DNA of 64,000 bases from Cytophagaceae bacterium ABcell3 (GTDB lineage Bacteria; Bacteroidota; Bacteroidia; Cytophagales; Cytophagaceae): contig CP133159.1 in assembly GCA_030913385.1 (NCBI GenBank), positions 1,076,584-1,140,583 on the forward strand, written 5' to 3'. A program made the position numbers and the translations under genes. The notes below the pieces were generated by a model, which was not told the DNA's origin, did not search any database, and saw only the letters and a program-made list of their open reading frames with translations. This document shows, piece after piece, positions 3,857 through 5,602 of the stretch; within the stretch, counting starts at the first letter, position 1, and every line of letters begins with the position of its first letter.

Positions 3857-3929
3857 GCGGGAATAGCTCAGCTGGTAGAGCGCGACCTTGCCAAGGTCGA
3901 GGCCGCGGGTTCGAATCCCGTTTCCCGCT
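3857..3929 (+). tRNA. tRNA-Gly (GCC)
   Basis: A 73-nt cloverleaf without encoded CCA. The acceptor stem GCGGGAA pairs with TTCCCGC, the D arm has AGCTCAGCTGGTAGAGC, the anticodon loop CTTGCCAAG presents GCC, and the T arm has GGGTTCGAATCCC. It is followed 70 bases later by tRNA-Leu in the same transcript. Confidence 0.97.
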
Positions 3930-3999
3930 CAAGTAAAGAAACGTGGCTAAATGCTGCGTTTTCTTGTTTAGTTCCGAATGTACGGAAGAAAGAGTAAAT

Positions 4000-4083
4000 G
4001 CCGGGATGGTGGAATTGGTAGACACGCAAGACTTAAAATCTTGTGTCCATTAGGACGTGCGGGTTCAAGTCCCGCTCCTGGTA
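4000..4083 (+). tRNA. tRNA-Leu (UAA)
   Basis: An 84-nt class II tRNA with a long variable arm. The acceptor GCCGGGA pairs with TCCTGGT (two G-U pairs), the anticodon loop CTTAAAATC presents TAA, and the T arm has GGGTTCAAGTCCC. CCA is not encoded. A terminator follows 5 bases after the end. Confidence 0.96.
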
Positions 4084-4088
4084 CTTAG

Positions 4089-4115
4089 AAAGCTGCGATA
4101 TTCGCAGCTTTTTTT
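4089..4115 (+). terminator. Intrinsic terminator of the tRNA operon
   Basis: A perfect 10-bp stem, AAAGCTGCGA / TCGCAGCTTT, with a TAT loop, runs into TTTT. It ends the tRNA-Gly/tRNA-Leu transcript before the metX promoter. Confidence 0.85.
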
Positions 4116-4220
4116 GTTTTCACAGTCTAGGTATTTGATTTAATTGCTGTGTTAACCCTTAAAAATCATTAAGTAGCACAAATTTCATGTTGCCGATAAA
4201 AACAATTACCATAGATGCTT

Positions 4221-4250
4221 TTTGTTTTTTCGCATATAAATGTAATTTTG
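4221..4250 (+). promoter_or_regulatory. Promoter of the metX riboswitch transcript
   Basis: TTTG at 4221-4224, an 18-base spacer, then TAATTTTG at 4243-4250 (fits TAnnTTTG). Start of transcription would be near 4257, just ahead of the riboswitch P1 stem. Confidence 0.65.
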
Positions 4251-4274
4251 CAATCCGGGTCAATTACGTATTTA

Positions 4275-4404
4275 ATGTAATTGATTTATAAAGAAGAGGG
4301 GAGAGAATAGGCTCCGTGAACCTCTAGCAACCTATCAGCCCGGAGCAGATAAGGTGCTAACTCCTATCCCGTGGAATAAAACGGGACATATAAATTAATT
4401 GCAT
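4275..4404 (+). promoter_or_regulatory. SAM-I (S-box) riboswitch
   Basis: The core has the S-box conserved segments in order: AGAGGGGAGAG, GAACCTCTAGCAACC, CAGCCCGGAGC, and AAGGTGCTAACTCC, followed by a P4 hairpin TCCCGT...ACGGGA (4367-4386). The closing P1 helix is unusually long: 4275-4290 pairs with 4389-4404 over about 16 bp, counting G-U pairs. S-box aptamers bind S-adenosylmethionine and switch off methionine genes; metX downstream fits. No classic terminator hairpin with a long U tract is visible after P1. What follows, two bases later, is the ATG of a small Cys-rich ORF, so the output could be translational or transcriptional (inference). Confidence 0.88.
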
Positions 4405-4406
4405 AT

Positions 4407-4511
4407 ATGAAGATTTTCGAAACTTTTGTGTCCTTTTTCAATTTTACCTGCTCAGGCTACTCCTGCAATTTTCTTACTTCACTGAAACTTTGTTGTTGTT
4501 GCACGCAATAA
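4407..4511 (+). CDS. Putative cysteine-codon leader peptide upstream of metX
   Basis: ATG at 4407 opens a 34-codon frame ending at TAA 4509. Its peptide starts MKIFETFVSFFNFTCSG and ends LTSLKLCCCCTQ. Six of 34 residues are Cys, with four Cys codons in a row (TGT TGT TGT TGC, 4491-4502) only three codons before the stop. It lies between the SAM-I riboswitch (2 bases upstream) and the metX GTG (47 bases downstream). Clusters of codons for the end product's amino acid near the end of a short ORF are the hallmark of ribosome-mediated attenuation. A poly-Cys leader before a sulfur-assimilation gene fits sensing of Cys-tRNA supply. Poly-Cys upstream ORFs of this type are known from other bacteria such as mycobacteria; none is known to me in this phylum. 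Translation is inferred, not shown. Confidence 0.6.
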   Translation: MKIFETFVSFFNFTCSGYSCNFLTSLKLCCCCTQ

Positions 4512-4558
4512 AGCATCAGCAAATTTTTACTTTCATTAATCAAAAGGGTTTTTACGCA

Positions 4559-5602
4559 GTGGAGAATAAGGAATTTAAATATAACGGTACATTTCAGCTT
4601 GAGAAGGGCGGTCAAATCAATGGTATTAAAATCGCCTACACTACTTTTGGAAACTTCAAACCTCAAGAGAGTAAGGTAATATGGATCTGCCATGCACTTA
4701 CTGCAAACTCTGAAGCTTGTGTTTGGTGGGAAGGATTAGTGGGAAAAGGTAAACTCTTTGACCCTGACAAGTATTTCATTATTTGTGCCAATATTTTAGG
4801 TTCTTGTTATGGTACTACCGGGCCTTTGGAAATTAATAGTGATACTGGTGAACCTTGGTACTTGGATTTTCCTGAAATTACTATTCGTGATATGGTGGGC
4901 GTGCATGAAATACTTCGCACCCATTTAGGAATTGACAAGATATATACATGCATAGGTGGTTCCTTGGGAGGGCAGCAGGCTGTAGAATGGGCCATTATCA
5001 ATCCTGGTCTGATCGAAAACCTCATTCTTCTTGCTACTAATGCAGTGCATTCTCCATGGGGTATAGCTTTTAATGAAGCCCAACGTATGGCTATTAAGGC
5101 TGATAATACCTGGACAGATAAGTCTCCTTTTGCTGGGATAGAAGGCTTAAAAGCGGCAAGGGCTATCGCTTTGCTTTCTTACAGAAACTATAACACCTAT
5201 AAACACTCCCAGTCTGAAGACTCTGACGACAAACTTGATGACTTTAGAGCTATTTCTTACCAAAACTACCAAGGTGAAAAGCTTGTAAAGCGTTTTAGCT
5301 GCCATTCTTATTGGCACTTGTCTAAAGCTATGGACTGCCACAATGTGGGTAGAGGAAGGGGAGGCGTTGCCCAAGCGCTTTCAAAAATTAAATCAAAAAC
5401 ATTGGCTATTGGCATTAAGACCGATGTGCTCTTTCCTGTTTCGGAGCAAATACTTTTGGCTGACCATATTCCTGGTGCTCAATATAGCGAGATTGAATCT
5501 CTTTATGGGCATGATGGCTTCCTTATAGAGACTGTGAAAATCAGTGAAGCCATAGAAGGTTTTTTTAAGGGCAATCGCCAAGTGAACTCTTCCATATCTT
5601 AA
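4559..5602 (+). CDS. metX: Homoserine O-acetyltransferase
   Basis: Transfers acetyl from acetyl-CoA to homoserine, giving O-acetylhomoserine for direct sulfhydrylation to homocysteine. It is an alpha/beta hydrolase fold. The nucleophile elbow is CIGGSLGGQQAVEW, the oxyanion segment ICHALTANSEA, and GSCYGTTGP is diagnostic of MetX. The catalytic Asp (IGIKTDVLFP) and His (YGHDGFLIE) are near the end. I start it at the GTG at 4559 (MENKEFKYNGTFQL), which aligns with the usual N-terminus and gives 347 residues; AAAAGGG at 4542-4548 may serve as ribosome site. A longer frame from TTG 4490 overlaps the leader ORF in another frame and is less likely. It is controlled by the SAM-I riboswitch and perhaps by the Cys leader. 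Confidence 0.95.
   Translation: MENKEFKYNGTFQLEKGGQINGIKIAYTTFGNFKPQESKVIWICHALTANSEACVWWEGLVGKGKLFDPDKYFIICANILGSCYGTTGPLEINSDTGEPWYLDFPEITIRDMVGVHEILRTHLGIDKIYTCIGGSLGGQQAVEWAIINPGLIENLILLATNAVHSPWGIAFNEAQRMAIKADNTWTDKSPFAGIEGLKAARAIALLSYRNYNTYKHSQSEDSDDKLDDFRAISYQNYQGEKLVKRFSCHSYWHLSKAMDCHNVGRGRGGVAQALSKIKSKTLAIGIKTDVLFPVSEQILLADHIPGAQYSEIESLYGHDGFLIETVKISEAIEGFFKGNRQVNSSIS

Follow-up and report, generated by a model that had tools for sequence, protein, structure and literature searches.

A SAM-I riboswitch and a cysteine-run leader ORF recur together upstream of metX and other genes in Bacteroidota

Architecture of the metX leader

We analysed a 64,000-nucleotide stretch of the genome of Cytophagaceae bacterium ABcell3 (contig CP133159.1, positions 1,076,584–1,140,583), hereafter the window, in which the homoserine O-acetyltransferase gene metX is preceded by a SAM-I (S-box) riboswitch and by a short upstream open reading frame (uORF) with a run of cysteine codons. 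The elements of this leader, in window coordinates, are as follows.

4243–4250, plus strand: candidate −7 promoter box, TAATTTTG, of the Bacteroidota form TAnnTTTG (consensus as given in the accessible portions of PMC7366714 and PMC9723704)
4257–4287, plus strand: predicted 5′ hairpin of 13 pairs with a loop of 5, candidate SAM-free state
4275–4290, plus strand: 5′ strand of the extended P1 helix, forming 16 pairs with 4389–4404
4283–4396, plus strand: SAM-I (S-box) riboswitch aptamer, matched by RF00162, with a ‘type A’ A/U-rich P1 (GATTTATA ... TATAAATT)
4389–4404, plus strand: 3′ strand of the extended P1 helix in the predicted fold, directly 5′ of the uORF start
4407–4511, plus strand: leader ORF (uORF) of 34 codons, MKIFETFVSFFNFTCSGYSCNFLTSLKLCCCCTQ, with counterparts in relatives
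4449–4451 and 4464–4466, plus strand: two further Cys codons of the uORF, read from the sequence
4491–4502, plus strand: run of four Cys codons, TGT TGT TGT TGC, read from the sequence
4559–5602, plus strand: metX, homoserine O-acetyltransferase family by NCBIfam match, GTG start at 4559

The riboswitch that a first-pass annotation of this DNA had placed before metX is borne out by the RF00162 covariance model, which scores 73.5 bits at 4283–4396 (E 2.6e-15) against a gathering score of 44.4. The fold of 4256–4410 (−45.4 kcal/mol, z −4.15 against shuffles) includes the extended P1, and in it the uORF start codon, 4407–4409, is also paired, with 4267–4269. The uORF ATG lies 10 bases beyond the end of the Rfam aptamer model and two bases beyond the end of the extended P1, and the annotation’s placing of the start two bases past P1 is correct when P1 includes its extension (4275–4290/4389–4404). 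Its other coordinates agree with ours: 34 codons, six of them for Cys (codons 15, 20 and 29–32, the last four consecutive at 4491–4502, in a peptide ending CCCCTQ), and 47 bases (4512–4558) between the uORF stop and the metX GTG. The MetX product scores under the NCBIfam cut-offs of both TIGR01392 (340.9 bits, cut-off 500) and PRK00175 (320.9, cut-off 331), and in related species metX has a matching start and a matching sequence.

The −7 box is put forward as a candidate from its position only, because TAnnTTTG-type boxes are no commoner in the window than in shuffles (70 against an expected 79). Beginning 157 nt past this box and after the aptamer, the uORF does not have a leaderless start. 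The plus strand from aptamer to metX showed no sigma-70-like site, and the only terminator-like site in 4090–4700 is at 4090–4110, 5′ of the aptamer, with none between the aptamer and metX. Upstream of the leader, 3857–4110 holds two tRNA genes (anticodons GCC and TAA by reading) followed by that terminator-like hairpin. The genome has two S-boxes, the second of which precedes metH and has no Cys ORF.

Cysteine-run uORFs accompany one kind of P1

We took all 103 S-boxes from 59 genomes, the window’s own and 58 relatives of its family or order (48 of the 59 have a match), and added 40 class-level S-boxes from among the matches listed for the class. One of these 143, L023, was excluded as its contig ends 7 nt after the aptamer, and 142 were scored. 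Thirty loci outside all counts (L224–L253) showed no Cys run by eye in the 150 nt from GGTGC on.

The SAM-I aptamers of Bacteroidota are of two P1 kinds, type A (TTTATA...TATAAA) and type H (TTATC...GATAA). Under a strict rule, by which an ORF must start with ATG or GTG no more than 20 nt past the aptamer and have two or more Cys in a row among its last 12 residues, a Cys uORF follows 43 of 73 type-A but only 1 of 69 type-H aptamers (Fisher p 1.9e-15, relatedness ignored). A chance origin is ruled out by dinucleotide shuffling of the type-A leaders, which in 60 rounds gave a mean of 0.28 and a maximum of 2 strict-rule ORFs; CCC-ending ORFs are present in 26 of the 73 real leaders and absent from all 60 rounds. 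Cys alone is enriched as a run, doubles of any other amino acid occurring in at most 5 of the 73 leaders. In the 43 leaders with a Cys run, the uORF starts 1 to 14 nt after the aptamer, mostly 7 to 10, and the run ends at the stop codon in 23. The other 30 type-A leaders fail the rule, which overlooks clear cases such as L018 (CCC in mid-ORF) and L102 (a more distant start). Before metH, no strict-rule Cys ORF was found at any of 34 type-H or 3 type-A S-boxes.

Counted by genome, one or more Cys uORFs are present in 26 of the 47 order-level genomes whose S-boxes could be read, and 10 of the 17 families and 17 of the 34 genera are represented; the class sample has one in 4 of 27 genomes, only 6 of which possess a type-A S-box. 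Pairs 1 and 2 of P1 vary yet stay paired in 61 and 67, respectively, of the 73 type-A S-boxes.

Distribution across Bacteroidota

To look more widely, a species-genome collection (84,980 species by its description) was scanned for the 3′ part of the aptamer followed, 90–120 nt on, by three Cys codons, with neither frame nor start codon required, and at least 120 loci matched. Among the matches listed, 119 of 120 have an in-frame uORF (78 of the first 80 by script, L163 on inspection, and all 40 of the remainder) and 117 of 120 bear Bacteroidota names. Going by those names, with Solirubrum alone looked up, we take the listed loci to belong to Cytophagales, Sphingobacteriales, Chitinophagales, Saprospirales and Flavobacteriales. 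The three listed loci without a Bacteroidota name are L110, L176 (Macrococcus, in which the ORF is absent) and L220 (CALPRR020000053.1). The last is labelled Candidatus Kuenenia stuttgartiensis, and because its uORF is nearly identical to that of the Flavobacteriales MAG L193 we consider the label doubtful, the source probably being mislabelled or a mixed bin. Fewer than 120 independent genomes underlie the 120 loci, because some share contigs or genomes, also with the first sample: L119 lies on the contig of L008 and L136 on that of L009, L153 comes from the genome of L061, and L144 and L210 come from one genome.

The encoded peptides include MNAQ...RMCCCCCCC (L027) and MKT...TCMCCCIQ (Pedobacter, L124). 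The leaders stand before metX and metY. Reading of the downstream proteins adds as targets cysH (L053, L057, L105), genes resembling those for sulfite reductase (L158) and IscS (L078), permeases (L108, L128, L175), SusC-like transporters (L173, L174) and others. In Hymenobacteraceae (L106, L180, L061, L044), the S-box and poly-Cys uORF stand before an ATP-grasp gene whose role in sulfur metabolism is not obvious.

In the family to which the window belongs, the Cys run has a patchy distribution among metX leaders: of 18 with a type-A aptamer, 8 pass the strict rule (9 counting L018) and 10 fail it, four of these 10 having no ATG or GTG uORF within 20 nt. The Cys-run ORF that the first-pass annotation had proposed to seek in related S-box metX leaders is found under this rule in some of them and missing from the others. 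In one genus of the family (L028, L045, L058) a uORF with a diverged peptide and no Cys run directly follows the type-A aptamer. Its stop overlaps the metX start, as UAAUG in two leaders and UGAUG in L028, where two ATGs are available and use of the first would make the overlap AUGA. In another genus (L018, L019, L024) the uORF stop lies 2–4 nt before metX, and in L019 and L024 the uORF closes with two Cys codons that adjoin the metX start. The 47-nt gap of the window allows neither overlap nor abutment, so the geometry of termination–reinitiation is absent there, and in the 62 metY leaders measured the gap is 88–217 nt. By analogy with ppe2 of Mycobacterium tuberculosis, we read the arrangement in these two genera as that of a relay uORF, with Cys sensing as an add-on module.

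Selection on the cysteine codons

In alignments of related leaders, the Cys columns change far less than the rest of the uORF. Pairwise differences at codon positions 1, 2 and 3 are 0.05, 0.05 and 0.20 in the Cys columns of Mucilaginibacter, against 0.54, 0.47 and 0.47 elsewhere; 0, 0 and 0.16 in Hymenobacter, against 0.25, 0.36 and 0.38; and 0.06, 0.06 and 0.06 in Pedobacter, against 0.18, 0.16 and 0.28. Four metX leaders from one genus (L013, L014, L015, L025) have zero change in the Cys columns and are too few to judge. Across uORFs both Cys codons are in use (261 TGT, 135 TGC). Because the third base changes and both codons are used, what is conserved is the Cys residue, more than the DNA string or the N-terminal peptide. 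The first-pass annotation had named as evidence against itself a Cys run lost in relatives while the flanks vary; in groups of close relatives we see the Cys codons kept as the remainder of the uORF drifts. The feature is real, conserved and widespread.

For counts across clades, 123 uORFs (L184–L223 not among them) were thinned to 91 by peptide similarity; the median uORF length is 37 codons. In 28 of the 91 the Cys run is immediately preceded by a Met codon (for example L107, L111 and L027), Met making up 2.7% of upstream uORF residues; the corresponding binomial p of 4e-22 assumes an independence that relatives lack. From sequence, this placement would suggest that Met, the second sulfur amino acid, is possibly sensed through the codon before the run.

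A predicted 5′ hairpin competing with P1

The 3′ arm of the hairpin predicted at 4257–4287 takes the first five bases of P1, making the two mutually exclusive. Forcing this hairpin in 4256–4410 costs 2.3 kcal/mol (−43.1 against −45.4), and the minimum-energy fold of the longer segment 4256–4600 contains it instead of P1; near-equal predicted energies for the two folds are what a SAM-driven switch needs. Because the longer fold put the 5′ strand of P1 in the hairpin, we surveyed the other S-boxes, counting any uninterrupted stem of at least 8 pairs that ends from 2 bases before to 5 bases into the aptamer. Such a hairpin is present in 19 of 73 type-A leaders (shuffle mean 1.4, maximum 6) and 1 of 69 type-H leaders (shuffle mean 1.4). 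Among the listed pattern loci it occurs in 36 of 118 (shuffle mean 2.4, maximum 7), L161 and L176 being left out as their aptamer start was not found. The arms vary with pairing kept (CAATTAC/GTAATTG, CAATTGC/GCAGTTG, CAATCT/AGATTG). Of the 36 long hairpins in the listed pattern loci, only 18 have a 3′ arm that extends into P1; in the Hymenobacter group this arm stops at the aptamer edge and would compete only with a P1 extension; and the uninterrupted 8-pair hairpin is absent from 54 of the 73 type-A leaders. The inverted repeat at 4257–4287 could be a DNA operator rather than an RNA switch. Among the scored S-boxes, the type-A P1 accompanies uORF and 5′ hairpin, and type H, often before metH, almost never has either.

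SAM gating of a second sensor, as the first-pass annotation had it, gains structural support in these predictions from the position of the uORF start 1–14 nt after the aptamer and from the enrichment of a hairpin competing with P1. These conserved, mutually exclusive predicted structures suggest that access to the uORF would depend on SAM.

The output step

An intrinsic terminator after the Cys run is not supported: a simple scan of metX and metY leaders with more than 60 nt found terminator-like sites in 1 of 68, against a shuffle mean of 3.2 (1–6). Sequestration of the metX start was considered next. The window fold predicts pairing of this start with uORF codons at 4470–4491, and removing the part of the uORF that a ribosome would cover is predicted to raise the unpaired fraction of the start from 0.34 to 0.49. 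With the same part removed, the gain in openness of the start exceeded 0.1 in 9 of 13 metX and 9 of 62 metY leaders, a tally in which L008/L119 and L009/L136 are double-counted. Ranked among dinucleotide shuffles of the uORF, real uORFs average 29.8 out of 60 for the 13 metX leaders (12 distinct, L008/L119 recurring here too) and 25.9 for every fourth metY leader (16 of the 62); only L152 ranks below all its shuffles for metX start sequestration, and the corresponding segment of the window has a z of −1.01. Because shuffled uORFs do equally well, we make no claim of metX start sequestration. Pairing of the Cys codons with downstream sequence, which visual inspection had suggested for the window and some other leaders, is at chance level, with a mean z of −0.04 over the 91 representatives and 12% above 1.5.

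The 70 nt past the uORF stop are more stably folded than their shuffles, with a mean z of −1.07 (SE 0.15, n=91), −1.18 for metY and −0.33 for metX (n=7). The metY start is predicted to be open on average with or without a covered uORF (unpaired fractions of 0.61 and 0.63). C/G ratios of 1.55 for metY uORFs and 1.57 for the sequence that follows them compare with 1.12 for the metY coding sequence, but metH leaders also reach 1.36; as a sign of Rho sites in metY leaders these ratios are suggestive only. Between uORF and metY, consecutive hairpins without a U-tract are predicted in Pedobacter (L107–L127) and Mucilaginibacter (L109–L165). Compensatory changes were counted in 7 of 25 predicted pairs in Mucilaginibacter (36 of 299 cells broken) and 4 of 36 in Pedobacter (11 of 252 broken), on structures predicted from the same alignments. 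The output at metY is probably Rho-dependent termination, mRNA stability or translation, and not an intrinsic terminator; we favour Rho or RNA stability because terminators are unsupported and metY starts are open regardless of uORF coverage. For metX we favour coupling or a local translational effect.

A proposed two-input leader and its alternatives

The analysis shows an architecture that is conserved and confined to a single P1 type, and it shows the enrichment of the 5′ hairpin; SAM gating, ribosome stalling, a response sign and an output step we infer, and together these would make up a two-input RNA leader whose SAM-I aptamer gates a uORF sensing charged tRNA-Cys. We regard this reading as probable, and dual sensing of SAM and cysteine as the best explanation of the leader. 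The dual control of metX suggested by the first-pass annotation has good support as an architecture, from its recurrence in many Bacteroidota, from the enrichment of runs of Cys alone and from the retention of Cys codons in an otherwise drifting ORF; the patchiness of the run in the family (8 of 18) speaks against it.

The proposed steps are these. The A/U-rich P1 would cover the ribosome-loading region of the uORF, which begins 10 nt downstream. With SAM bound, a stable P1 would block the uORF start; with SAM absent, the hairpin at 4257–4287 would capture the 5′ strand of P1 and free 4389–4404, in front of the uORF. The uORF would then be translated, and where charged tRNA-Cys is scarce the ribosome may pause at the Cys codons near the stop, as codon conservation and the analogy of known leader-peptide attenuators suggest; the Met codon that often stands just before the run may add a tRNA-Met input. 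The uORF ribosome would relay to metX, across 47 nt in the window and through a stop–start overlap in one related genus. As for the sign of the response, gene expression turned on by a shortage of charged tRNA-Cys seems somewhat the likelier, because cysH-like and sulfite-reductase-like genes share the leader and because known leader-peptide attenuators work in this way; the coupling geometry in two genera of the family would fit the opposite sign. The broader proposition, that many Bacteroidota use a standard sulfur device in which a SAM-I aptamer with a 5′ hairpin partner has the uORF start as its output, in place of a terminator or a masked gene start, followed by sensing of charged tRNA-Cys and, via the Met codon preceding the run, charged tRNA-Met, has in our estimate a little short of an even chance.

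The opposite sign would follow if the uORF passed SAM control to the gene by translational coupling. A Cys shortage would then turn the gene off, as a stalled ribosome permits no reinitiation, and methionine synthesis would need both low SAM and enough cysteine. The overlaps and 2–4-nt gaps of two family genera are what such coupling would look like, and so are the two Cys codons adjoining the metX start at the end of the uORF in L019 and L024; MetX and MetY, moreover, compete with cysteine synthesis for sulfide. Neither the 47-nt gap of the window nor the 88–217 nt of the 62 metY leaders fits it, however, and genes such as the cysH-like and sulfite-reductase-like targets should be switched on, not off, when cysteine is short. 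On balance we judge this arrangement unlikely.

Two further readings dispense with tRNA-Cys charging. The poly-Cys nascent peptide might itself be the sensor or product, responding to metal, redox state or persulfide. Cys residues reportedly matter in copper-controlled uORFs. Control of the uORF type by copper is on record in the accessible portions of PMC9426467 and PMC9973294. Here, however, clades differ in the N-terminal part of the uORF, TGT and TGC both occur in the runs, and a C-terminal run in ORFs with a median of 37 codons would remain inside the ribosome tunnel until release, and we consider a peptide sensor very improbable. Hardly any weight, finally, falls on an untranslated ORF whose TGY run is kept for RNA or DNA reasons: 119 of the 120 listed runs are in frame with a start just past the aptamer, in several groups the changes in Cys codons fall on the third base and seldom on the other two, and pairing of the run with downstream sequence is at chance level.

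It is usual to regard riboswitches and leader-peptide attenuators as distinct devices; in these leaders the two seem to be joined one after the other, across several orders of a single phylum, and the combined device sits at the branch that divides sulfur between cysteine and methionine. If the device reading is true, SAM and both sulfur amino acids would be read in series by one leader. Bacteroidota rely little on Shine–Dalgarno sequences, and the leader offers a system for asking how a riboswitch controls translation in this phylum. It also predicts many unannotated short ORFs, and it suggests that not all Bacteroidota S-boxes should be taken as simple SAM-off switches.

Comparison with known systems

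The first-pass annotation knew of no description of this pairing in Bacteroidota, and our search, which reached few subscription journals or preprints, found no published description of a SAM riboswitch paired with a Cys-run ORF. Transcriptome papers on Flavobacterium psychrophilum and Bacteroides thetaiotaomicron treat leader peptides in general in the portions available (PMC9723704, PMC7366714). The nearest relatives in coding content are actinobacterial. Seliverstov 2005 (PMC1262725, available in part) predicted leader peptides with Cys runs, and with no terminator hairpin, in Actinobacteria, and poly-Cys ORFs respond to cysteine in Mycobacterium smegmatis according to Canestrari 2020, as cited in the accessible text of PMC9031893 and PMC13236596. 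As far as these excerpts go, the mycobacterial and actinobacterial ORFs resemble ours in having a Cys run near the stop, a place before sulfur genes and no conserved terminator hairpin. The excerpts describe the Canestrari ORFs as leaderless and do not mention a riboswitch, whereas here a 114-nt SAM-I aptamer comes first, with P1 abutting the start, and the phylum and the metX and metY targets differ.

A riboswitch acting through a translated uORF that relays to the main gene, as we propose, is described for ppe2 of M. tuberculosis, where a B12 riboswitch masks the uORF start and an AUGA overlap drives termination–reinitiation (PMC11260477, available in part). That uORF is not said, in the available text, to sense an amino acid, ligand and phylum differ, and the window has a 47-nt gap and no overlap. 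In Rhodobacterales, the uORFC-8-2 motif before cysS contains a tandem-Cys uORF proposed to sense tRNA-Cys charging (PMC8632094, in the portion seen). As far as that portion describes it, the motif ends in a U-run fitting an intrinsic terminator and comes with no mention of a riboswitch, whereas the window leader has an aptamer, and no terminator was found after it.

An operon with both inputs, ubiG–mccBA of Clostridium acetobutylicum, was reportedly described by Andre in 2008 as carrying an S-box plus a T-box, the latter said to read tRNA directly and so to report cysteine supply. In the accessible text of PMC9943018, a SAM riboswitch acts in antisense on a Clostridium methionine-to-cysteine operon. 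Like our leader, ubiG–mccBA makes one operon answer to SAM and, reportedly, to cysteine supply; unlike it, as far as the available excerpts go, its S-box lies on an antisense RNA from the far end and no uORF takes part. In Firmicutes generally, the standard expression platform of SAM-I riboswitches is a terminator/antiterminator after the aptamer. Those S-boxes (RF00162) share with the leader described here the aptamer family and the methionine and sulfur gene targets, and where they carry the terminator platform, this leader has in its place a uORF and a hairpin 5′ of the aptamer.
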